From NCBI RefSeq assembly GCF_013366925.1, contig NZ_JAALDK010000001.1, positions 1,309,089-1,373,088 of the forward strand: a stretch of 64,000 bases of DNA. Direction: 5' to 3'. The DNA is from Paraburkholderia youngii (lineage in GTDB: Bacteria > Pseudomonadota > Gammaproteobacteria > Burkholderiales > Burkholderiaceae). A program made the translations under genes and the position numbers. A model generated the notes under the pieces. It did not search any database. It saw nothing but the letters and a program-made list of their open reading frames with translations, and was not told where the DNA came from. Below are positions 1 through 10,329 of this stretch, in pieces (position 1 is the first letter of the stretch; every line of letters starts with the position of its first letter).

Positions 1-876
1 GGTCGCCTCGATCAGCACGGGTAGCCAGTTCTGCAGGAAGAACAGCGCCATCGAATTGGCGATGTACGCGAGCCACAACGCGGTCGTCACGTAGCGCAGG
101 CGGCCGGCGAACAGCATTCGTGGCGAGAACCTGGCGACGCGGCGCTCGTCGGTCACGACGAACTGCGCGCCGGGCACCAACGCGAGTTCGGGCCGCACGC
201 GCGCGGCGGTCGCCGCGATGCCGTCGCGGGGCCAGCCTTTCAGCACCTGATAGCGCAGCGACTCCGGCATCACGAACGACAGCCCGGCCGCCACCACGAG
301 CGGCGCGAGCCCACCGACCACGAATACCGCGGGCCAGCCAAAGTGCGGCACGAGCCACACGGCGACGCCGCCGCCGAAGCCCGCGCCGAGCGTGTAGCCG
401 GTGAACATCAGCGTGACCCAGGTGGCGCGCAGCCGCTTCGGGGCGAATTCCGACACCAGCACGAACGCATTCGGCACCGCGCCGCCGATGCCGATGCCCG
501 CGGCGAAGCGCAGCCACAGCAGCTGGTCGACACTCGCCGCCCATGCGGTCGCGAGCGTGATGAGCCCGTACCAGCACGCACCGAGCAGGATCGCGCGCTT
601 GCGCCCGATCCGGTCGCCGATATAGCCGAACAGGATCGAGCCGACCATGATGCCGAAGATGTTGGCGCCGAACACCGGACCGAGCACGCTGCGCTCGATG
701 TGCCACGCGCGAATCAGCGAAGGCGCGGCGAACGCCAGCGCACTGAGCTCGTAGCCGTCGGTCAGCATCACGAGCCATGTGGACGCGATCAGCAGGATCG
801 CGAAGCGGCCGATCTTCTGTTCGTCGATCAGGCGCGACACGTCCACCGTGCGCGCATCGGGCAGGGTTTGAATCAT
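1..876 (-). CDS. MFS transporter, AAHS-like (3' end outside window)
   Basis: Inner-membrane major facilitator permease, probably for an organic or aromatic acid imported with protons. The visible 292 residues start with a short cytoplasmic head, then a DGYE motif at the end of TM1 and an RIGRKRA loop between TM2 and TM3, both typical of the aromatic acid:H+ symporter (AAHS) group. The ATG at 876 is preceded by a strong GGAGGAG ribosome site. It is the last visible gene of the operon that begins with the IlvD-type dehydratase, 166 bases after the FAD oxidoreductase. It is clearly paralogous to the permease at 5064-6446, sharing the RAWHxExxVLGPVFGA stretch. The substrate is unknown, presumably that of the operon. 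Confidence 0.88.
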   Translation of the reverse strand, partial: MIQTLPDARTVDVSRLIDEQKIGRFAILLIASTWLVMLTDGYELSALAFAAPSLIRAWHIERSVLGPVFGANIFGIMVGSILFGYIGDRIGRKRAILLGACWYGLITLATAWAASVDQLLWLRFAAGIGIGGAVPNAFVLVSEFAPKRLRATWVTLMFTGYTLGAGFGGGVAVWLVPHFGWPAVFVVGGLAPLVVAAGLSFVMPESLRYQVLKGWPRDGIAATAARVRPELALVPGAQFVVTDERRVARFSPRMLFAGRLRYVTTALWLAYIANSMALFFLQNWLPVLIEAT

Positions 877-1042
877 CGTCTCCTCCAGAGGTGCCGCGTC
901 GGCGGCCGGGCAGATCCCGGCGCGTCGCGCGGTTCCGTCATATCGTCTCTGGCTGGCGCGGCAGTGGGTGCTCGCCGGGAGCCTCCTCGCGGAGCTCGCG
1001 CTGCACCTCTTTGGTATTGCCGCGCCGCCGGCGGATCATGCG

Positions 1043-2344
1043 TCAGTTCTTCAGATGCGGCGGATCGATGCGATCGACGTTGTCGGCGAGCCGCTCGCGC
1101 AGCATGCCGCGATCGATGTCGTGAACACTGCCGCCGTCGGCGAGATCGAATGCGTGCGCGGCCGCCGCGCCCATCGCGATGCACGGCCCCATCACCCGCA
1201 CGCTCGACAGTGCGGTCGCATCCGCGTCGATGCAGCGGCCGGCCGCGATCAGGTTGTCCGCGTCCTTCACGACGAGGCTGCCGAACGGCACGGTATGCAG
1301 ATGGTCGTCGCCGAACGGCTTCCATTCATAGCCTTCGGCGCGATCGTGCAATTCGATCGGCCACGACGTGCGCGCGACCGCGTCGGGAAACTGCCGGGCG
1401 GCGATCACGTCTTCCGAACTCAACTGCTGCGCGCCGACGATCCAGCGCGTCTGCCGGATGCCAGGCAGACCATAGCTGCGGATGTGGGCGTTGCGATAGA
1501 TGTGCGGATACTCGCCGCGCAGGAACTCGAACGCGCGGTCCGCCTGGTCGCGGCCGACGAGCGCCGTGTGCGACGCCGCCATCGGTTCGAGCGGCGTCTC
1601 GATGTGCGTCATGTTCGCGATGCCGATATTGCGGCCACGGAAGTAGAACACGAGCCCGTCCTTGCGCTCGAGCCCATAGGCGTGCGCCTTTTCCTCGACG
1701 CGCTCGCGAAACGCGGGCGGCGTCGGCAGATCGGTTTCGTCGAGGTTTTCGAGCACGATCATCTGCGTGCCGCGAATCGGCGTTTCCGGCTCCTGGCAGT
1801 CGAAGCCTGCGAGCCACGTGAGCGCCGCATCGCCGCTCGCATCGACGAAGCCGTTCGCCGCGATGCGCACGTCGCCGTAACGCGTCGCGACTTCCAGCTC
1901 GCGCACCCGCCGCTCTTCGCGTACGACGTTGCGCAGCACCGCGCCGAGCACGACGGTGATGCCGGCGTCGAGAATCTTCTGCTCGATCCAGCGCGCGAGC
2001 GCAACTTCGTCGTACAGCACGACGGTCGTCAGCGGCCCTTCCTTGTAGTGCAGCGCGCCCTTCTCGCCGAGATCGCGCAGGATGCCGTCCGCGATGCCGT
2101 GCGTCACCTGGAAACGCTGCGGCCCGTTCGAGAACAGCCCGCAGAACGTGCCGATGATCGAGTTGACCGCCTGGCCGCCGAGCGCGGGCAGGCTGTCCAC
2201 CAGCACGACCTTGCGGCCAAGCGCGGCCGCTTCGAGCGCAGCCGACGTGCCGGCGATGCCCGCGCCGACGATGCACACGTCGGCGTCGAGTTTCCAGCCC
2301 GTCGGTTGGCCGCCGCGGCGGACGATACGAGTACCAGTCTTCAA
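1043..2344 (-). CDS. FAD-dependent oxidoreductase (FAD_oxidored family)
   Basis: A flavoprotein dehydrogenase of 433 residues. The N-terminus has the dinucleotide-binding VGAGIAGTSAALEAA motif followed by VVLVDSLPALGGQ. The C-terminus has the AGRCIDADATA...MGPCIAMG stretch that closes the FAD site in this family (PF12831-like). The start is most likely the TTG at 2344, because GGAGG sits seven bases upstream; the ATG at 2368 lies upstream of that site and has no ribosome site of its own. The gene follows the aconitase X small subunit by 58 bases in the same operon, so it probably oxidises an intermediate of the same pathway. The family alone does not give the substrate. Confidence 0.85.
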   Translation of the reverse strand: MKTGTRIVRRGGQPTGWKLDADVCIVGAGIAGTSAALEAAALGRKVVLVDSLPALGGQAVNSIIGTFCGLFSNGPQRFQVTHGIADGILRDLGEKGALHYKEGPLTTVVLYDEVALARWIEQKILDAGITVVLGAVLRNVVREERRVRELEVATRYGDVRIAANGFVDASGDAALTWLAGFDCQEPETPIRGTQMIVLENLDETDLPTPPAFRERVEEKAHAYGLERKDGLVFYFRGRNIGIANMTHIETPLEPMAASHTALVGRDQADRAFEFLRGEYPHIYRNAHIRSYGLPGIRQTRWIVGAQQLSSEDVIAARQFPDAVARTSWPIELHDRAEGYEWKPFGDDHLHTVPFGSLVVKDADNLIAAGRCIDADATALSSVRVMGPCIAMGAAAAHAFDLADGGSVHDIDRGMLRERLADNVDRIDPPHLKN

Positions 2345-2402
2345 AACATTTCCTCCTTGAAAAACCATCGCGGTTGCGCGCGAACCGTCCCGCGCAGCAA
2401 GA

Positions 2403-2873
2403 TCATGCGCGGCCGCGTTTGAGCACTTCGACGACGCCACGCTCGGCATCGACGCGCACCCAGTCGCCGGTTTCGATCACGTCGAGTGGATCGATGTCGA
2501 AGTCGGTCAGCGACGGCGCATGGCTCACCACCGCGCCGAGCGCAATCTTCGTGGTCATCTCGTTGAACAGCATCGCGGCCGGCGCCGTGCCGGCGATCCG
2601 CGCGATATGGAACTGGCTCGACCAGCCCGACGAACCCTTCGCGCCGGGAAACACCAGCACCTTGTTCGCGAAGCTCTGGCCGCGCAGTTCGTGACGGGTT
2701 TCGATGATCGTGCCGGTGCGCGGATCGATGCCGCCCCAGCCCGAGATGCGATCGCGCGTGACGAGCGCCTCGCCCTCGACATAGCCGCCGACCACCTTGC
2801 GCCCGCGCAGCACGATCGGTGCGGCCGGCTCAGGTGTGCCTAACGTGTCTGTCGTCTCCTGGTTCGTGCTCAT
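2403..2873 (-). CDS. Aconitase X small (swivel) subunit, DUF126-type
   Basis: A 156-residue swivel domain that completes the active site of the large subunit encoded just upstream. It carries the conserved FPGAKGSSGWSSQF stretch near residue 75, whose serines belong to the active-site loop in aconitase X, and ends with a beta-rich domain (TGDWVRVDAERG). Its ATG overlaps the large-subunit stop in an ATGA of four bases, so the pair is translationally coupled. Known bacterial aconitase X enzymes dehydrate cis-3-hydroxy-L-proline and archaeal ones dehydrate mevalonate 5-phosphate. Neither context is visible here, so the reaction is inferred only as a dehydration. Confidence 0.88.
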   Translation of the reverse strand: MSTNQETTDTLGTPEPAAPIVLRGRKVVGGYVEGEALVTRDRISGWGGIDPRTGTIIETRHELRGQSFANKVLVFPGAKGSSGWSSQFHIARIAGTAPAAMLFNEMTTKIALGAVVSHAPSLTDFDIDPLDVIETGDWVRVDAERGVVEVLKRGRA

Positions 2874-4156
2874 GCGGCCAGCCCTCCTGTCCAGCGGCCG
2901 CTCACCGCGGCCTCGATGCAATCGGCCGTGGTGCCGAACCAGGCCTGCACGCCCATGATCGCGGGCAGGTAGTGCGCCTGCTTCGCCGAGTCGAGTGCGA
3001 CCACGCGCGTGCCCTTCGGCATCACGCGGCCGATCGCCGAGCACGTGTCGGTCATCAATACACCGCCCGCGTCCTCGATCAGCTTCGTATAGCCGGCCTG
3101 GTCCGCGAGCTGACGCGTCGCGCGCGCGGTGAAGATCCACAGTTCGGTATTCGCGCCGATGCGGCGGCCTTCGAGTAGCTGGCAGACCTCCCAGATCTGC
3201 TCGATCGAATAGTGCGGACAACCGAGCATCACGAAGTCGACCTGCGCGTCTTTCGCGGTGGTGTTCACGCGCTCGTACGCGAGGCGCCGCTCGGCCGCAC
3301 CGTAGCGAATGACCTCGAGCGGCTTGCGGCCGCGGAACGCTTCGTCGCGCGTGCGCGCCTCCGGCGTCTGGCCGACGATGTGATACATCTCGACACCGCC
3401 CGAGGACGCCGCGGCCGCGCCGAAGTGCTTGAGCTTCGGCAGGTTCGGCACGTCGCGCAGCCCGTCGATCACCGGAATGCGGTCCTGCACGAGTTCGCCG
3501 ACGTAGTAGCCGAGCAGCCCCCAGTCCTGCACCGTCTTGACGTCGATGCCGAGCTCGATCAGATGCGTGCCGCTACGGTTTTCGTCGAGGTGCAGACCCC
3601 AGTACGGAATCTTGCCGGTCAGCATCGCGGCGCCGGTGCTCTCGCGCCCTTCCGCGTTCGTGCGCGCGCCGAGCACCGCGTTGATGTATATCACCGCCGA
3701 CGACTCCATCCATGCGCAATGCTCGCCGCGCACCGGCACGTTGCCGGTCAAATATGGCGCGCAGGTGTTCAGTGGCTGGATGCCGAGCCGTCCCGTGAAT
3801 GCCTCGCCCTGGCGGTACAGCTTCACGACCTCGCCGTCGATGCCCTGACGCTGCGCATGCTGCGGGTCGAGGCCCTGCTGCAGATGGCTGCTGAACACCT
3901 TGGCCTTCGGCACCTCGACTACCTCAGGGCTATCGAGGTTGAATTCGGAAAACACCGCGTCGAGGCCGCCGTGCTTCGCCGCGTAATCGCGCAGGAACGG
4001 CATCGTCGCGCCGACCGTGCCGCATACGTTGTTCGTGTCCACCAGCCTCGGCGCGCCGAGTGCTTCGCCGTAGCGCACCAGCAGATCCATCGCGCGCTGC
4101 ACGGCCGCACCGTCGCGGCCGTCGAGCATCGCCCGTTCGTCGTCGTTCAGCTGCAT
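2870..4156 (-). CDS. Aconitase X catalytic (large) subunit, DUF521-type
   Basis: A 428-residue iron-sulfur dehydratase subunit. Cysteines at about 132 (NTCAPY), 313 (GCPH) and 372 (DTCSA) match the three cluster-binding cysteines of the family. The split large/small arrangement distinguishes it from the fused bacterial cis-3-hydroxyproline dehydratases. The ATG follows the stop of the TfdA-like dioxygenase gene with no gap (TAA then ATG). No pyrroline-2-carboxylate reductase or proline racemase gene is near, which argues against hydroxyproline as substrate. I infer dehydration of a hydroxy acid made or imported by the rest of the operon. Confidence 0.9.
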   Translation of the reverse strand: MQLNDDERAMLDGRDGAAVQRAMDLLVRYGEALGAPRLVDTNNVCGTVGATMPFLRDYAAKHGGLDAVFSEFNLDSPEVVEVPKAKVFSSHLQQGLDPQHAQRQGIDGEVVKLYRQGEAFTGRLGIQPLNTCAPYLTGNVPVRGEHCAWMESSAVIYINAVLGARTNAEGRESTGAAMLTGKIPYWGLHLDENRSGTHLIELGIDVKTVQDWGLLGYYVGELVQDRIPVIDGLRDVPNLPKLKHFGAAAASSGGVEMYHIVGQTPEARTRDEAFRGRKPLEVIRYGAAERRLAYERVNTTAKDAQVDFVMLGCPHYSIEQIWEVCQLLEGRRIGANTELWIFTARATRQLADQAGYTKLIEDAGGVLMTDTCSAIGRVMPKGTRVVALDSAKQAHYLPAIMGVQAWFGTTADCIEAAVSGRWTGGLAA

Positions 4157-5074
4157 TTAGCGCACTCCGTGGACAGGTTCAAGTAGCTCCGCTTGCGGCG
4201 CCGCGTGCCGGTCGATGTCGACCGTCGTCGCGCGCCGCAGCTCGCGGCGCACCGACAGATCGTGACGGCGGCCCCGGTGCAACGTGCAGCGGTTGTCCCA
4301 GATCACGAGATCGCCGGGCTGCCAGCGATGCGAATACACGAAGCGGCGCGCGGTCGCGTGTTCGAGCAGGTCCATCAGCAGCACGCGTCCTTCGGCAAGC
4401 GTGCGATCGGCGATATGCGTCGCGTGCGCGCCGATGAACAGATGCCGGCGTCCCGAACCGGCGTGCTCGCGCACGAGCGGCCAGCGCACCGGCGGCAGCG
4501 CGTTGCGCTGCTCGTCGCTGTAGTCGGTGTCGCCGAGCAGGAAGCGCGAGTGCAGCGCGTAGTGCTCCGCTTCGAGCCCTTCGAGTTCGCGCTGCTCGCG
4601 CGGCTCGAGCGCATCCCACGCGGCGCGCATGTCCGCGTACTCGGTCTCGCCGCCCGACTCCGGCACGACGACCGCATGCAGCATCGAATAGCGCGCGGCC
4701 GGCTGCTGAAACGAACTGTCGCTATGCCACAACTGGTTCGCCAGATTGCCGACGATGCGCCGGTGCGCGCGGTCCGCGATCTGTCCGGATTCGTCGACAT
4801 TCGAAATGTCCGCGAGCTCCTGATACGCGAGCCGCGCATGCGGACGCGCGACGCGCTTGAAGCCGAGATCGAGCGGCCCGAGCGAGCGCGCGAACGCGAG
4901 CTGCTGGTCCTGCGTGAGCGGCTGTCCGCGGAACACCAGCACCGCGTAGCGGTTCATCGCGGCATCGATCGCGCACGCGAGCTGTTCGGAAACGGGCGCC
5001 GTCAGATCGATGCCTCTGGCGAGGCCAACGAAGTCCGGACGCGCGGCGTCAATGGGAACGACTTCAAGCGGCAT
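4157..5074 (-). CDS. TfdA/TauD-family Fe(II)/2-oxoglutarate dioxygenase
   Basis: A cytoplasmic oxygenase of 305 residues that would couple 2-oxoglutarate decarboxylation to hydroxylation of a small acid. The iron ligands are visible as His117-x-Asp119 (LWHSDSSF) and His266 (TLHRGRR), and the 2-oxoglutarate-binding arginine lies near 281 (RRATT), as in TfdA. The ATG at 5074 was chosen because of an upstream GGAGC and the family-like N-terminus; it overlaps the end of the permease gene by 11 bases. It is unusual to find an oxygen-requiring enzyme between two iron-sulfur dehydratase genes. Residues alone cannot tell hydroxylation from cleavage. Confidence 0.88.
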   Translation of the reverse strand: MPLEVVPIDAARPDFVGLARGIDLTAPVSEQLACAIDAAMNRYAVLVFRGQPLTQDQQLAFARSLGPLDLGFKRVARPHARLAYQELADISNVDESGQIADRAHRRIVGNLANQLWHSDSSFQQPAARYSMLHAVVVPESGGETEYADMRAAWDALEPREQRELEGLEAEHYALHSRFLLGDTDYSDEQRNALPPVRWPLVREHAGSGRRHLFIGAHATHIADRTLAEGRVLLMDLLEHATARRFVYSHRWQPGDLVIWDNRCTLHRGRRHDLSVRRELRRATTVDIDRHAAPQAELLEPVHGVR

Positions 5075-6446
5075 GGGCTGCTCCTGTTTGAGGGTTGTCC
5101 GGCGCTGCATCGTCGCGGCGACGATGCAGACGGCCGAGAGCGAACGCGAGCACCGCGACGAACGCGACCGGCACCGCGCCGAGGAAGAACAGCTGCTCGA
5201 CCGGCAGATGCGCGGACATCAGCATCCCGCCGATCACCGGCCCGGCGATCGCGCCGATCTTCTGGATGCCGACCGCCGCGCCTGTGCCTTTCGCGCGCAG
5301 CGCGGTCGGATAGACGAGCGCCGCGACCGCGTTCAGGCCGAACTGCGTGCCGACCACCGTGAAGCCGGTCAGGAACACGGCTGCCACCAGCATCGGGCCG
5401 GGCAGTCCGGTGCCGAGCAGCGCGACGAGGGGCGTGCCGACAAGCGGCAGCGCGGTGATGATGATGGCGCCGCGCGTGTCGACGAAGCGCATCAGCGCGA
5501 GGCCGCCGAGCGTGCCGCCAAGCTGGAACATCGTCGATACGAGCGCCGCCTCGCGCGGCGCAAGGCCCACGCTTTCGATCAGCACCGGCAGCCAGCTGCT
5601 GAGGAAAAACAGCGCCATCGAGTTCGCGATGTACACGGCCCACAGCACCGGCGTCAGCGCGCGCAGCCGGCCCGCGAACAGCAGCCGCAGCGAGCCGTCG
5701 CGGCCGTCGCCATGTGCGTCACCACCCGAAGCGCCGCCGGTCACGAAGCGCGCCCCCGGCGCGACGTGGAAACCCGGTGCGATACGTGCGACGATTCGCG
5801 CGACTTCGGCGTGACGGCCCTTGAGCGTCAGGAAGCGGATCGACTCGGGCACCGCGAACCACAACATCGCGCTCGACACCAGCGGCGCGATGCCGCCGAT
5901 CACGAACACTACCTGCCAGCCGAACTTCGGCACGAGCCACGCGGACACGAGCCCGCCGACGCTGCTGCCGATCGTGTAGCCGGTGTACATCAGCGTGACC
6001 CACGTCGCGCGCCAGCGCTTCGGCGCGAACTCCGTCGTGTACGCGATCGCGTTCGGCACCACGCCGCCGATGCCGATGCCCGCCAGGAACCGCAGCACGA
6101 GCATCTGGTCGAGCGCGGTTGCGCGCGACGCCGCGAGCGTGAACCCCGCAAGCACGACGCTGCCGATCACGATCATGCGCTTGCGGCCGATCACGTCGCC
6201 GAGGTAGCCGAGCACGAACGCGCCGATCATCGTGCCGAACACGAATGCGCCGAACACCGGGCCAAGCACGCCGTGCTCGAGATGCCATGCGCGGCTCAGC
6301 GCCGGGGCCGCGAAGGCCATCGCGGCGAGGTCGTAGCCCTCGGTCATCATCATCACGCCCATCGCGACGATCAGCAGCACACCGAAGCGGTTCGTCTGCT
6401 GCCGCTCGATCACCGAGCCGATGTCGATTACGGTTTGGTCGCCCAT
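5064..6446 (-). CDS. MFS transporter, AAHS-like
   Basis: A 460-residue inner-membrane permease with about 12 membrane segments. It has the EGYDLAAMAF motif in TM1 and the DVIGRKRMIV loop between TM2 and TM3, both typical of aromatic acid:H+ symporters. The ATG lies one base after the IlvD-type dehydratase stop, so translation is coupled. The central loop, around residues 220-250, is glycine- and alanine-rich. It is a paralogue of the permease at 1-876, so one operon carries two versions. Having two could mean two related substrates or uptake plus export; the sequence does not decide. Confidence 0.92.
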   Translation of the reverse strand: MGDQTVIDIGSVIERQQTNRFGVLLIVAMGVMMMTEGYDLAAMAFAAPALSRAWHLEHGVLGPVFGAFVFGTMIGAFVLGYLGDVIGRKRMIVIGSVVLAGFTLAASRATALDQMLVLRFLAGIGIGGVVPNAIAYTTEFAPKRWRATWVTLMYTGYTIGSSVGGLVSAWLVPKFGWQVVFVIGGIAPLVSSAMLWFAVPESIRFLTLKGRHAEVARIVARIAPGFHVAPGARFVTGGASGGDAHGDGRDGSLRLLFAGRLRALTPVLWAVYIANSMALFFLSSWLPVLIESVGLAPREAALVSTMFQLGGTLGGLALMRFVDTRGAIIITALPLVGTPLVALLGTGLPGPMLVAAVFLTGFTVVGTQFGLNAVAALVYPTALRAKGTGAAVGIQKIGAIAGPVIGGMLMSAHLPVEQLFFLGAVPVAFVAVLAFALGRLHRRRDDAAPDNPQTGAAHAA

Positions 6447-6447
6447 C

Positions 6448-8163
6448 TCAGCGCTCCCGCGCCGGGCGATCCGCGCCGAGCACCGCGCCTTGCGGCATCG
6501 TGCCAACCGTCGCGCGATAGATTTTCAGCCAGCCGGTGTCGTTGACCGGCGCGGGACGCTGCCACGCGGCGCGCCGCCGCGCCAGCTCGGCTTGGTCCAC
6601 CTTCAGATCGCAGACGCGCCGCTCGAGGTCGATCTCGATCGTGTCGCCGTCCTCGACGTACGCGAGCGGTCCGCCGGTCGCCGCCTCCGGCGACACTTCC
6701 GCGACCACCAGCCCCTTGCAGACGAGGCCCGACAGATGCCCGTCGGTCAGCATCGCGACCTGCTCGGACAGGCCCGCGCCGTCGATCGCGAACACCACGC
6801 GTGACGCGCCGCCGCCCATCGCCGGGCCGCCGCACACGCCCGCGCCGTGCATCACGACGACTTTGCCCGGTTGCACGCGGCCGTCCTTGATCGCCGCGAT
6901 CGCATCGTCGGAGGTGGAGAAGCAGATCGCTTCGCCGGTGAACGCGCGCTGCTTGGTCGGCGAGATGCCGAACTTCACGATGCCGGCCTGCGGGGCCAGG
7001 TTGCCGCGCACCAGCACGATCGCCGGATGGTTCGCGAACGCGCGCTCCGGCGGGCGGATCACGTCGTCGTCGGCGATCCGGACCTCGGCCAGGTTGTCCT
7101 TCACCGTGCGGCCGGTCACCGTCAGCGCGCCGGTGTCGAGCCACGCTTCGAGCCGCTTCATCACGCCGCGCCCGCCGCCCGCCGCCTCCAGTTGCTCGAT
7201 CGTGTGCGAGCCGACCGGACGCACGCCGGTCAGCACCGGAATCTGCGCGGCGAATGCCTCGAACAGCGCGTACACGTCGACGTCGAGCTGGCCCTCGGCC
7301 GCGACCGCCTGCAAGTGCTTGACCGTGTTGATCGAGCCGCCGACCGCGAGCACCGTCTTCACCGCATTCGCGAACGCGCCGGGCGTCAGGATGTCGCGCG
7401 GCTTCAGGTCGTCGCGCACCATCTCGACGATGCGCGCGCCCGCTTCGTGCACGGACGCGAACATTTTGTCGCTGTTGGCGGCGACCGGCGTGCTGCCGGG
7501 CAACGACATGCCGAGCGCCTCGCTGACCATGTGCATCGAGTTCGCGGTGCCGAGACCCGAGCACACGCCCGGCCCGCGAATCGCGTTCTGGCTCATGCCG
7601 ATCAGGTCCTCGACCGGGAGCGTGCCGGTCAGCGTATGCATCGCGCCGACGAACACGTCCTCGATGTCCACATGCTCGCCGCGGAATTCGCCGCTCGGCT
7701 GATAGCCGCATGCGACGACGATGCTCGGGATGTTCAGCCGCGCGGCGGCCATCAATTGGCCCGGCACGGTCTTGTCGCACGAAGCGAGGCACACCATGCC
7801 GTCGAGTTGCGCGCCTTCGACGGCCACTTCGATGTCGTTCGTGACGAGGTCGCGTGCGGCCAGCATGTACGCGCCGCGCGCGCCCGCGCCGGTGATGAAG
7901 TCGCTCGGCGCCGCGGTGCGGATTTCGAACGGCAGCGCGCCCGCCGCGCGGATCGCCTGTTTCAGTTGTGCGGCGATGCCGTCGAGATGGCTGAAGCAGG
8001 TAGCGAGTTCGGACGAGGAATTGACGATGGCGATCTTGGGCTTGTCGAGGTCTTCCTCGCTGATGCCGAGATTGCGCCATTGGGCGGCGCGCACCGCGCC
8101 GAGATACGAACCTCGCGGGAAATTGCTGCGCAACGGGCGTTGCGGCTTGCGTCCATCGGACAT
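6448..8163 (-). CDS. IlvD/Edd-family sugar-acid dehydratase
   Basis: A 571-residue iron-sulfur dehydratase, the right length for the pentonate/hexonate branch (for example L-arabinonate dehydratase) rather than proof of dihydroxyacid dehydratase. Cluster cysteines appear at 56 (LATCFSHL), 129 (ASCDKTVPG) and 201 (GPGVCSGLGTA), and the TDGHLSG stretch carries the conserved catalytic serine. It is the first gene of the operon and starts with a good GGAGTGAG ribosome site. The reaction would be conversion of a 2,3-dihydroxy acid to a 2-keto-3-deoxy acid; the actual substrate is not known. Confidence 0.92.
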   Translation of the reverse strand: MSDGRKPQRPLRSNFPRGSYLGAVRAAQWRNLGISEEDLDKPKIAIVNSSSELATCFSHLDGIAAQLKQAIRAAGALPFEIRTAAPSDFITGAGARGAYMLAARDLVTNDIEVAVEGAQLDGMVCLASCDKTVPGQLMAAARLNIPSIVVACGYQPSGEFRGEHVDIEDVFVGAMHTLTGTLPVEDLIGMSQNAIRGPGVCSGLGTANSMHMVSEALGMSLPGSTPVAANSDKMFASVHEAGARIVEMVRDDLKPRDILTPGAFANAVKTVLAVGGSINTVKHLQAVAAEGQLDVDVYALFEAFAAQIPVLTGVRPVGSHTIEQLEAAGGGRGVMKRLEAWLDTGALTVTGRTVKDNLAEVRIADDDVIRPPERAFANHPAIVLVRGNLAPQAGIVKFGISPTKQRAFTGEAICFSTSDDAIAAIKDGRVQPGKVVVMHGAGVCGGPAMGGGASRVVFAIDGAGLSEQVAMLTDGHLSGLVCKGLVVAEVSPEAATGGPLAYVEDGDTIEIDLERRVCDLKVDQAELARRRAAWQRPAPVNDTGWLKIYRATVGTMPQGAVLGADRPARER

Positions 8164-8219
8164 GGCGTCTCACTCCTTTGTTGTGGAAACGATGTTAGGA
8201 AGCGCGATAAAATCCTTCA

Positions 8220-8248
8220 ATTATGTGACATCGATAGGCATCATCCAA
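8220..8248 (-). promoter_or_regulatory. Probable sigma-70 promoter of the dehydratase operon
   Basis: On the minus strand TTGGAT (8243-8248) and CATAAT (8220-8225) are separated by exactly 17 bases. The -35 box ends four bases before the ATG of the divergent LysR gene. The region also contains ATGTGACAT, a short palindrome at 8223-8231 overlapping the -10 box, which could be part of the LysR site. The match to consensus is visible; use of the promoter is inferred. Confidence 0.55.
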
Positions 8249-8251
8249 ACC

Positions 8252-9214
8252 ATGGATATTCGTCAGGTCGACCTGAATCTGCTGAAAGTGTTCGATGCGT
8301 TGCTGAAAAAGCGGCATGTGACGCAGGCGGGCGTGAGCATCGGGCTCAGCCAGCCGGCAATGAGCTATGCGTTATCGAAGCTGCGTGAGCTGTTCGAGGA
8401 CCCGCTGTTCGTGCGCACCGGCCGCGGCATGGAGCCGACGCCGCGCGCGCAGGCGCTCGGCGATCCAGTTGCGCGGCTGCTGGATCTCGTGCAGACCGAA
8501 ATCCTGCCGATGCCCGAATTCCGTCCGGCCGCGTCGTCGCGCAGCTTCGTGCTGTGTATGTCGGACATCGGCGAAATGGTGTTCCTGCCCCGCTTGCAGA
8601 ACTTTCTCGACAAGACCGCGCCGCACGTGACCATCAAAACGGTCGCGCTCAGCATGCCGGAGCTGGAGGAAGGTCTGGCGAGCGGCGACGTCGATCTCGC
8701 GATCGGCTACTTTCCGGGTTTGAACAGCGAATCGCTGAAGCGCAAAGCGCTGTACCGGCATTCGTATGTGTGTATTGCGCGCGAAGATCATCCGGAAATC
8801 GGCGACACGCTGTCGCTCGATCAGTACCGCGCGGCCGCGCACGTGATGGTGCATCCGGAAGGCCGCGAGCAGGACGTGCTCGCTCGCACGCACGAACGCC
8901 TCGGGATTCGCATCAACGTGCGCTTCAGCGTGCCGCGTTTTATCGGCGTACCGTTCGTCGTCGCCGGCTCGGACATGATTGCAGCGGTGCCTCAGGCGGT
9001 CGGGCGGCGCTTCGCGGAGTTCGTGAACGTCAAGCTGCTGCCTTTACCCTTCCCCGCGCCCAAGTACGACTTTTATCTGCACTGGCATCCGCGCTTTCAT
9101 CACGAGCCGGCCAACCGCTGGATTCGCGACGCGATGAGCGAGCTCATCAAGGGGCCGATGCAGCACGAGCCGTTGCCGAATACGAAACGGACGCGCTTGA
9201 ACGCAGCGCCATAG
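8252..9214 (+). CDS. LysR-family transcriptional regulator
   Basis: A 320-residue LysR-type regulator. Residues 1-65 form the winged helix-turn-helix (VTQAGVSIGLSQPAMSYALSKL) and the rest is the NodD-like effector-binding domain. It is divergent from the dehydratase operon, with only 88 bases between the two start codons, which is the usual layout for an activator of the operon that represses itself. The ATG at 8252 was chosen because the DNA-binding domain begins there (MDIRQVDLNLLKVFD). No strong ribosome site precedes it. The ligand is probably an intermediate of the operon. Confidence 0.93.
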   Translation: MDIRQVDLNLLKVFDALLKKRHVTQAGVSIGLSQPAMSYALSKLRELFEDPLFVRTGRGMEPTPRAQALGDPVARLLDLVQTEILPMPEFRPAASSRSFVLCMSDIGEMVFLPRLQNFLDKTAPHVTIKTVALSMPELEEGLASGDVDLAIGYFPGLNSESLKRKALYRHSYVCIAREDHPEIGDTLSLDQYRAAAHVMVHPEGREQDVLARTHERLGIRINVRFSVPRFIGVPFVVAGSDMIAAVPQAVGRRFAEFVNVKLLPLPFPAPKYDFYLHWHPRFHHEPANRWIRDAMSELIKGPMQHEPLPNTKRTRLNAAP

Positions 9215-9239
9215 TCCGGGCTGTATCAGCGCTACTCGC

Positions 9240-10202
9240 TCACGATGCGGAAGTGGCGTCGCCAGCGTGGATCAGCAGAATTGGCGTTTGCGTGATTTGC
9301 AAGACCCGCCCAGCGACGCTGCCGAGTATCCAGCGTGTGATGCCGCGCCTGCCATGCGTACCCATCACGATCAGTTGCGCCTCCCAGCCGGCCGCCTCGC
9401 GCACGATCGCATGAGCAACATCATCGTCGGTTCGGTTCGTCCTGACGAGCGCTGTCGAGACCCGCGCCGACACGCGCGCCAGAACCGGCTCGGCAGCGGC
9501 TATTGCCTCCTTGCCTTCGCCGACGAACGAGTCCTCGAGCGAATCGATCGGGATCCAATCGGAGAGCCGCACGGCGCGATCGATCACATAGACCGCTCGC
9601 AATTCGGTGTCGGACGTAGCGAACCGTATTCCGTACCGCACCGCGGACATCGACAGAGAACTTCCATCGACCGCGAACAGGATGCGCTCGGGCAACTCGC
9701 TTTGCGTCGTGCTGTAGCTCTGCGGGACGACCAGCATCGGGCAGCGCAGACGTCTCGTCAGCCGTTCGGACACCGTACCCTCGGCCCAACGCTGCAACCC
9801 CTGGTGTTGACGCGAGCCTATCACCATCAGGTCGGCTCTCCATGTGTCGGCCGCATCGATCAGGGCATCCACGACGTCGTTACCGCGCTTCGCGAGGTCG
9901 ATGACTTCCGAGTCGATACGTGCATCACACGCGGCTAGCGATTGCGTCGCCCGATCGAGCGCCTCGAGCGCATCGCGGAGCAATTCATCGCGCGCCAGAT
10001 CCAGCATGTGGCCGACGCGCCGGCCGGTCGGAAATAGCTTATGGGGATTCTCGGCCACGCTCACGAGGCGGACGTCGCATCCGGCGGGAAGGAGGTTTCG
10101 CGCGTAGTCGAGCGCCTGTCGGGATGCTTCCGATGAATCGACTGCGATCAGCACTCTGCGCGGCAGCGTCGAGATGGCGTCGCCTGAATGGGGGGAATTC
10201 AT
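9240..10202 (-). CDS. Tandem universal stress protein (UspA-type, two domains)
   Basis: A 320-residue cytoplasmic protein of two Usp domains, roughly 14-160 and 172-316. The second has an intact nucleotide-binding signature (GTHG, nine residues, GS), whereas in the first the second glycine is replaced by glutamine (GSRQ, nine residues, GT), so ATP binding may be restricted to the C-terminal half. The ATG at 10202 follows a GGAG-like site. It lies 127 bases downstream of the ferritin-like gene on the same strand, consistent with a stress group. It converges on the LysR gene with 25 bases between. Confidence 0.9.
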   Translation of the reverse strand: MNSPHSGDAISTLPRRVLIAVDSSEASRQALDYARNLLPAGCDVRLVSVAENPHKLFPTGRRVGHMLDLARDELLRDALEALDRATQSLAACDARIDSEVIDLAKRGNDVVDALIDAADTWRADLMVIGSRQHQGLQRWAEGTVSERLTRRLRCPMLVVPQSYSTTQSELPERILFAVDGSSLSMSAVRYGIRFATSDTELRAVYVIDRAVRLSDWIPIDSLEDSFVGEGKEAIAAAEPVLARVSARVSTALVRTNRTDDDVAHAIVREAAGWEAQLIVMGTHGRRGITRWILGSVAGRVLQITQTPILLIHAGDATSAS

Positions 10203-10329
10203 GGTTGGCTCCGTACTCGCAGGTTTGGCGGCGTGGTGACGAATGGCGTCGACTACGAGATCTACGCGAAACGCGACGCCTGACCGGCCCCTCTGCGATG
10301 CCCCGCTCATCACAGAGGGCCGTCTACGA

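Follow-up and report, generated by a model that had tools for sequence, protein, structure and literature searches.

A nine-gene locus of Paraburkholderia youngii that joins an uncharacterized aconitase X to an IlvD-family dehydratase, a flavoprotein and a TfdA-clade dioxygenase

Two kinds of aconitase X (AcnX) have been characterized, and PMC8184944 describes them as differing in the way in which they hold their substrates; the same paper lists the subclasses IIc to IIf as uncharacterized proteins without the landmark residues of both enzymes. TfdA, the 2,4-dichlorophenoxyacetate (2,4-D)/2-oxoglutarate dioxygenase of plasmid pJP4, converts 2,4-D into 2,4-dichlorophenol and glyoxylate, and its natural substrate is not settled in the literature consulted. 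Here, we describe a minus-strand operon of Paraburkholderia youngii in which genes of both families occur together. It lies at the start of a 64,000-nucleotide stretch of DNA (the window, positions 1–64,000, in whose numbering operon positions are given) and encodes an IlvD/Edd-family dehydratase, two permeases, a TfdA-clade dioxygenase, both AcnX subunits and a flavin adenine dinucleotide (FAD)-dependent oxidoreductase. We conclude that the pathway is real, conserved and uncharacterized. Its core consists of a PF12831 flavoprotein, the two-subunit AcnX and, in most loci, the IlvD, while the transporters and regulators are interchangeable and TfdA is optional. The open-access literature, which leaves out most subscription papers, yielded no account of a pathway that combines these genes, and to this extent the view of the initial annotation that the enzymes do not fit one known pathway stands.

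Recurrence of the core and extent of the conserved block

The scan of GTDB species genomes gave 355 AcnX-encoding stretches, and the counts reported here refer to the best 80 (66–99% AcnX identity). The AcnX small subunit was encoded in 79 of these 80 loci and an IlvD of the window's subfamily in 69, on the AcnX strand in 63 of the 69. A flavoprotein of the kind found in the window (type 1) was present in 24 loci and a second type, which is 19–22% identical to the window protein by alignment, in 48; the two types were never found together. Small subunit, IlvD and a flavoprotein of either type were all present in 66 loci, and a PF12831-type flavoprotein of any sort was present in 76, four of them resting on clustering. 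Among the eight loci without a type 1 or type 2 flavoprotein, four encode a third PF12831-type protein (L025 by Pfam; L021, L033 and L034 by clustering); the others are L026 and L039, which are short (9.9 kb and 3.9 kb), L082, where AcnX is near the sequence edge, and L044, where no flavoprotein was found in 21 kb. The peripheral genes were TfdA (16/80), an aromatic acid:H+ symporter (AAHS) permease at an identity of at least 30% (20/80), a TctC receptor (54/80), an IclR regulator (53/80) and a LysR orthologue at an identity of at least 45% (19/80). Because of this variation in gene content across the loci, the set is considered to be modular. The distance matrices of AcnX and IlvD were correlated (r 0.887, 0/2000 permutations, n 69), a value to which shared genome descent contributes. 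In the genus sample, an AcnX at an identity of at least 82% was present in 8 of 144 genomes, with the P. youngii genome itself counted.

The two Fe-S dehydratases and the flavoprotein co-occur in Burkholderiales, in Pseudomonas and on one alphaproteobacterial plasmid. This plasmid, pD4M1B of Paroceanicella profunda, carries an AcnX relative of 55–59% identity and is the minimal case, with the genes for LysR, IlvD, the FAD protein and the large and small AcnX subunits standing consecutively and being followed by one opposite-strand HD-domain gene and then by tripartite ATP-independent periplasmic (TRAP) transporter genes. Relatives in the same identity range occur in four genomes from a different class of this phylum (G334, G408, G270 and G442). 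In G270, the genes for a permease, IlvD, AcnX and a type 2 flavoprotein are consecutive; in G442, AcnX is accompanied by a TAXI/DctM transporter, a flavoprotein and a TfdA (53%); and in G408, the flavoprotein gene immediately precedes AcnX, with no TfdA in the stretch read. In G334, a flavoprotein gene is near AcnX, and an IlvD that is 58% identical to that of the window (G334:C54 / L165 10096–11781) lies 13 kb from AcnX on the same contig, with ATP-binding cassette (ABC) transporter genes between. The break-up of gene order in other genomes, which the initial annotation had named as a refutation of its proposal, consequently applies to TfdA and the permeases and for the most part does not apply to IlvD, AcnX and the flavoprotein.

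In the window, the operon runs on the minus strand from the IlvD gene (6448–8163, 571 aa) through MFS1, an AAHS-type permease (5064–6446, 460 aa, ATG at 6446), the TfdA-clade 2-oxoglutarate/Fe(II) dioxygenase (4157–5074, 305 aa, ATG at 5074), the AcnX large subunit (2870–4156, 428 aa), the AcnX small subunit or swivel domain (2403–2873, 156 aa) and the flavoprotein (1043–2344, 433 aa, with a TTG start at 2344 behind AAGGAGG) to MFS2, a second AAHS-type permease (1–876). MFS2 is a 468-aa protein with its ATG at 876 and its 3′ end beyond the window; the whole gene is at 9470–10876 of L009, a stretch that was extended past the window edge. Pfam assigned ILVD_EDD_N and ILV_EDD_C, MFS_1 twice, TauD, AcnX, AcnX_swivel_put and FAD_oxidored (PF12831) across the operon. 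The spacings are a gap of +1 between ilvD and MFS1, an overlap of 11 between MFS1 and TfdA, a gap of 0 between TfdA and the AcnX large subunit, an ATGA overlap of 4 between the AcnX subunits, and gaps of 58 before the flavoprotein gene and 166 before MFS2. Every coordinate on which the initial annotation had based a minus-strand operon was reproduced in this way, and its proposal of one catabolic operon is supported. The genes that it listed are correct, but the unit is larger, as it forms part of an 11.1-kb block that also includes a porin gene (Porin_4, L009:8171–9361), which follows MFS2 outside the window, and a divergent gene for a LysR-type regulator (8252–9214, plus strand, 320 aa), which forms an edge of the block and is separated from ilvD by an intergenic region of 88 bp (8164–8251).

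The block edges were determined by DNA comparison with ten related loci, using matches of >300 bases. Between its limits on the porin side (window ~ −1829) and on the LysR side (9195–9239), the block is conserved at 88–94% DNA identity in five of them, L011–L015, which come from Paraburkholderia sejongensis, Paraburkholderia sp. UYCP14C, Burkholderia latens, B. dolosa and Burkholderia sp. Ax-1724. In these loci the similarity stops where the porin gene and the LysR gene end, so that the edges are gene-precise, and there were no matches of >300 bases outside the block in the ~5 kb compared per side. In L010 (P. atlantica), the nearest of the ten, the similarity reaches beyond the block. Because the block can be aligned over 11.1 kb in five contigs with its edges at gene ends, the operon is more than a chance arrangement, and we take the block to be a functional unit of nine genes that has moved as a cassette.

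Outside the cassette, beyond the porin, L009 encodes a protein of 1288 aa (3675–7541) in which TPR repeats are combined with an AAA domain. The GC fraction is 0.618 in L009 1–8100 and 0.675 in the block. On the other side, the LysR gene is adjoined by a 357-aa open reading frame (ORF) (window 9240–10313, minus strand) that by eye resembles a tandem universal stress protein and has a relative in L010 alone among the 80 loci. No tRNA genes were found at the cassette edge in L009, and Rfam gave no RNA-element match in the window at gathering scores. For several loci, scans of the flanking genes gave DNA polymerase III, photolyase, tRNA synthetase and other genes that were set aside because they had no relation to the operon.

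Properties of the encoded proteins

The AcnX of the operon is a two-subunit Type II protein, with matches to PF04412 in the large subunit (389 bits) and to PF01989 in the swivel subunit (87.2 bits) that are both above the gathering score, and the large subunit is the sole AcnX match in the genome. Residues were mapped by sequence alignment, with their roles taken from PMC8184944, in 86 loci that comprise the P. youngii locus, the best 80 and five from other classes. Cys132, Cys313, Cys372, Glu151, Ser152, Ser153, Lys392 and Tyr396 were invariant in all 86. The three cysteines, presumed ligands of the Fe-S cluster, correspond to the Cys110/Cys283/Cys342 ligands of Type IIb, while the phosphate-binding pair of that type, Asn53 and Asn79, is absent from the window protein, in which alone it was checked, by eye. 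As judged from the alignment, Glu151, Ser152, Lys392 and Tyr396 would interact with the carboxylate and beta-hydroxyl groups, and the small subunit contributes Ser81, the presumed general base and catalytic serine. A stretch of AcnX at residues 43–56, N-V...T-P-F-x-R, is for the most part conserved. The small subunit has a Trp at the Trp35 position and a Ser-Ser-Gly motif (twice with Ala), compared to Ser-Cys-Thr or Ser-Thr-Val in the characterized enzymes. The Cys510 equivalent is Ala in 82 loci and Ser in 4, the Asp that holds the proline nitrogen has no counterpart among aligned residues 46–53 in any of the 86, and the Thr72 position, in 98 rows with an identity of at least 50% (some loci counted twice), is Gly in 95, Ala in 2 and unaligned in 1.

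AcnX thus keeps the residues that, in its solved relatives, bind a carboxylate and a beta-hydroxyl group and remove the alpha proton, while the residues that hold the amino group are missing. Because those catalytic residues are kept, the enzyme is expected to dehydrate a 3-hydroxy acid. We infer that it is a dehydratase with an archaeal-type cluster whose 3-hydroxy acid substrate would be neither an amino acid nor, probably, phosphorylated; it matches neither of the characterized kinds. A function as mevalonate 5-phosphate dehydratase was rejected, as the cluster ligands agree and the phosphate-binding residues do not. It is extremely improbable that the protein acts on cis-3-hydroxy-L-proline (C3LHyp) in hydroxyproline catabolism. 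The NCBIfam C3LHyp model does match both subunits (239.4 bits for the large and 69.3 bits for the small), but its cut-off is 700 bits, although a split protein is at a disadvantage against a model of a fused one; the equivalents of Asp203, Thr72 and Cys510 are missing; no proline-pathway gene is among the operon genes scanned; and in both the genus and the phylum searches the identity to other AcnX proteins is bimodal, at either at least 56% or at most 40%. Hydroxyproline catabolism was ruled out on the active-site residues, model score and gene content, and the active-site residues also support the earlier impression that this route does not fit.

An intermediate AcnX of 38–40% identity was observed in genome G055 (L099 / L154 4575–5816). 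It has the archaeal-type cysteine trio, one in-frame TGA and an Asn in place of the Trp in the swivel subunit, and it is perhaps another uncharacterized subclass.

Enzymes of the IlvD type convert a 2,3-dihydroxy acid to a 2-oxo acid. The IlvD of the operon contains both Pfam domains over its full length, above the gathering score (320.1 and 169.6 bits). The AcnX-linked IlvDs are 53–98% identical to it, and the seven other IlvD/Edd copies in the genome 28–36%. All eight NCBIfam models listed for the protein scored below their cut-offs, including TIGR00110 (458.5 bits, cut-off 618.15) and NF009559 (354.7 bits, cut-off 882), so that it was placed with neither the dihydroxy-acid nor the L-arabinonate dehydratases. 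Because of the identity gap and the scores below the cut-offs, the AcnX-linked proteins are regarded as a separate subfamily that has no named member in NCBIfam.

Tricarballylate dehydrogenase TcuA was considered for the flavoprotein and rejected, as the match is confined to the Rossmann region. The third type of flavoprotein stands in one gene row with AcnX and a PF17645 protein in L025 (5819–13399, with the same genes in L163) and, by clustering, in L021 and L034. PF17645, the arylmalonate decarboxylase family, also includes maleate isomerases, and the association is a further substrate clue. In L042 (3518–7497) and L026 (6357–8051), a protein of the choline-dehydrogenase (GMC) kind that scores below the NCBIfam cut-offs is encoded divergently from the AcnX genes, accompanied in L042 by an aldehyde dehydrogenase, as if a primary alcohol were first oxidized to the acid.

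The dioxygenase is 66% identical to pJP4 TfdA over 274 residues, and its best relatives in the PDB are more distant. It is a member of the TauD/TfdA family in which the HSD...H triad (HxD...H) and the flanking active-site stretches are conserved with pJP4 TfdA, and the earlier label of a TfdA-like protein therefore named the right family and understated the closeness. This closeness is not unique, as many proteins are about equally close and two metagenomic ones are closer (72–75%). At the C-terminus, the proteins of the window, L014 and L017 have a tail of ~15 residues past the pJP4 TfdA end, and that of L020 has none. In a tree of 134 rows, into which 12 AcnX-linked rows were put and in which 118 rows are of unknown context, the AcnX-linked proteins fall at three places, in a Burkholderia-Pandoraea-Glaciimonas clade, in an Azohydromonas-Methylibium-Ramlibacter group and at G442, with the pJP4 group placed apart from them. 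This tree gives no more than a hint that TfdA became associated with AcnX repeatedly. Some of the separating forks have a support of 81–88 and some are weak, L153 and G442 are each placed on a long branch, and, against a repeated association, the label needs one change when the rows of unknown context are ignored.

TfdA also occurs away from AcnX. In a sample of 399 genomes from the order, 16 had TfdA relatives (at E values of at most 1e-75) and 3 had an AcnX of the clade; both were present in the P. youngii genome and in G627, on different contigs in the latter, and 14 of the 16 TfdA genomes had no AcnX of the clade. In five stretches of 10–16 kb around TfdA relatives, there was no AcnX among the ORFs picked, a selection that missed TfdA itself in L160, and TctC genes were picked in four of the five. 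Because TfdA occurs in these other contexts, it is considered to be peripheral here, and the dioxygenase is not counted as part of the core.

MFS1 and MFS2 are each 42% identical to TfdK of pJP4 and 55% identical to each other. TIGR00895 (AAHS) is the best-scoring family for both, at 333.4 and 341.1 bits, below its cut-off of 418.55. The regulator was named LysR-type from its sequence and its 28% identity to the pJP4 LysR proteins.

A proposed route and its alternatives

Genes for the breakdown of plant aromatic compounds were counted within 10 kb of AcnX in the best 80 loci. Of the van genes, vanA was the one scanned; vanB, vanR, fcs, ech and vdh are presumptive names that come from family matches, gene position and the usual make-up of such operons. 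By a strict count, a vanA-like gene with vanB beside it is present in four loci, L015 (Burkholderia), L042 (a Vitreoscilla metagenome-assembled genome), L062 (Methylibium) and L065 (Variovorax); a fifth, in L029 (Pseudomonas flavescens), is cut by the locus end. Feruloyl-CoA-synthetase (fcs)-like genes of the NCBIfam PRK12582 subfamily (696–739 bits, cut-off 777) are present in six loci (L029, L036, L041, L043, L057 and L079) and also in G408 of the other class. In L029, the fcs gene belongs to a one-strand run that begins with the LysR gene of the AcnX operon and continues with an enoyl-CoA hydratase family gene (ech), aldehyde dehydrogenase, fcs, thiolase and acyl-CoA dehydrogenase (acd), and in L031 and L032 a thiolase that is 75–76% like that of L029 follows LysR. 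Taken together, vanA or fcs-like genes occur in 10 of the 80 loci, or in 12 when the two thiolase loci are counted. In seven of the eight AcnX-bearing genomes of the genus vanA is single-copy, and there are two copies in G103. Because the gene is mostly single-copy, ~0.2–0.3 occurrences would be expected by chance in 1.63 Mb, compared to the four seen (Poisson P 6e-5 to 4e-4, a value that is only rough because catabolic genes cluster). In a control of 20 loci around other AcnX genes, none had vanA or fcs. The link to plant phenylpropanoids is suggestive.

Our favored reading, which we hold tentatively and at somewhat less than even confidence, is that the locus is a horizontally moving nine-gene catabolic cassette whose core enzymes act on a hydroxylated acid from plant phenylpropanoid material, with TfdA opening an ether route. 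While family assignments, gene order, conservation and residues are read from the sequence, we infer the chemistry, the step order and the substrate. The porin and the two AAHS permeases would bring in the substrate, a hydroxylated acid possibly of the lignin or hydroxycinnamate type, and LysR would sense it or an intermediate. In the version found in Burkholderia, Pandoraea and Glaciimonas, the first step may fall to the TfdA-clade enzyme, which would oxidatively cleave an ether at the position alpha to the carboxylate, as TfdA does with 2,4-D, or alternatively carry out a hydroxylation. The flavoprotein would contribute an oxidation step, AcnX would dehydrate a 3-hydroxy acid and IlvD a 2,3-dihydroxy acid, such that one substrate would be oxidized once and dehydrated twice. 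The products may be 2-oxo acids or compounds of the hydroxycinnamate or vanillate type that pass to housekeeping pathways; since the loci have no additional catabolic enzyme in common, the product would most likely enter general metabolism. An extension of this reading, which we regard as unlikely, is that the native job of the TfdA lineage is to cleave natural aryl-ether acids, such as lignin beta-O-4-like fragments with the aryloxy group on the carbon alpha to the carboxylate. The AcnX subclass, IlvD and flavoprotein would then dehydrate the arylpropanoid part, in the form of 3-hydroxy-3-aryl or 2,3-dihydroxy-3-aryl acids, and the resulting products of the cinnamate or arylpyruvate type would feed the ferulate and vanillate pathways, and the 2,4-D plasmids would have taken their first enzyme from this natural pool.

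Several results weigh against the phenylpropanoid reading. No vanA or fcs homologue is present in 70 of the 80 loci, and the contrast with the control is not significant (Fisher two-sided P 0.20 for 10/80 and 0.12 for 12/80). The Pigmentiphaga type accounts for four of the six fcs loci, which are hence one lineage, and in the P. youngii genome, which has five fcs relatives, vanA and the best of these relatives are ~2 Mb from the operon. TfdA is absent from 64 of the 80 loci. The transporters of other loci (TctC, DctP-type TRAP and ABC) fit non-aromatic acids equally. For the flavoprotein, a fold search with its AlphaFold model (pLDDT 86) listed 50 rows of mixed flavoproteins with Z from 21.1 to 17.8 (~3 units), among which no subfamily was prominent enough to assign its reaction. 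IlvD is missing from 11 of the 80 fetched stretches, some of which are short contigs (L021, 11.1 kb; L026), and the whole genomes of G442 and G408 contain no IlvD of the AcnX-linked subfamily.

The loci without IlvD, in particular G442 and G408 with their AcnX and flavoprotein, also point to several small pathways that are grouped for regulatory convenience, with AcnX and IlvD acting on different compounds, as does the frequent occurrence of TfdA apart from AcnX. Since AcnX and IlvD are paired in most loci in varied gene orders and predominantly on the same strand, and form a minimal operon in Paroceanicella, we consider such a grouping to be improbable. It is quite possible, although we lean slightly away from it, that the acid broken down by the core is non-aromatic, either a hydroxy-polycarboxylic acid or a sugar acid (such as hydroxycitrate, an aldarate or a branched 2,3-dihydroxy acid), which would be free or form the acid portion of a hydroxycinnamoyl ester. 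The product would be a central 2-oxo acid, so that three enzymes would be enough, and TfdA would be an accessory for an ether-linked form. The Paroceanicella operon, which has the three core enzymes and a regulator near a TRAP transporter annotated for C4-dicarboxylates, and the frequent TctC receptors are consistent with such a substrate, as is the absence of a ring-cleavage gene from the operon in the Pfam scan. It would account for the nearby ferulate-type genes, ferulate being co-released from hydroxycinnamoyl esters, and an IlvD-type conversion of hydroxycitrate to oxalosuccinate seems chemically plausible. However, the two permeases with their similarity to TfdK and the TfdA active-site stretches suggest an aromatic ether acid, at least for the Burkholderia version; no esterase was recognized among the neighbors scanned, which are a small share of all neighbors; and Trp46 and the small residues at the presumed AcnX pocket may leave space for a ring.

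With its regulator and transporters, the locus offers a precisely defined group of genes through which to trace what is acted on by an AcnX subclass matching neither characterized enzyme. It also places an enzyme 66% identical to TfdA in a chromosomal, non-herbicide context, in which the question of the natural substrate becomes directly testable. If the plant-aromatic reading is true, acids derived from lignin or hydroxycinnamates would have an additional route in soil bacteria, one that employs two Fe-S dehydratases.

Comparison with characterized enzymes

The mevalonate 5-phosphate dehydratase of T. kodakarensis (AcnX Type II, PDB 7cnr/7cns) likewise consists of two subunits, and the equivalents of its Cys110/Cys283/Cys342, Ser62, Glu129, Ser130, Ser131, Lys361 and Tyr365 are kept in the window protein. 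In contrast, Asn53 is replaced by Phe and Asn79 by Leu (aligned by eye, with a register that is uncertain by one residue), and Leu27, Thr63 and Val64 are replaced by Trp, Ser and Gly, also by eye; the window AcnX further differs in its catabolic gene context. With the AcnX of A. tumefaciens (PDB 7cnp/7cnq/7d2r), the window protein shares the family domains and the equivalents of Trp35, Ser70, Cys273, Glu292, Ser293, Cys508, Lys530 and Tyr534, whereas it lacks those of Asp203, Thr72 and Cys510 and has an extra cysteine, Cys313, at the Ser449 position. The IlvD has both Pfam domains in common with the dihydroxy-acid, L-arabinonate and D-xylonate dehydratases of the IlvD/Edd family but remains below all eight listed NCBIfam cut-offs. 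Finally, the dioxygenase shares the HxD...H triad and most of the neighboring stretches with pJP4 TfdA, and it differs in that its gene is chromosomal, is part of an AcnX-IlvD operon away from chlorocatechol genes and falls in a different clade of the tree.

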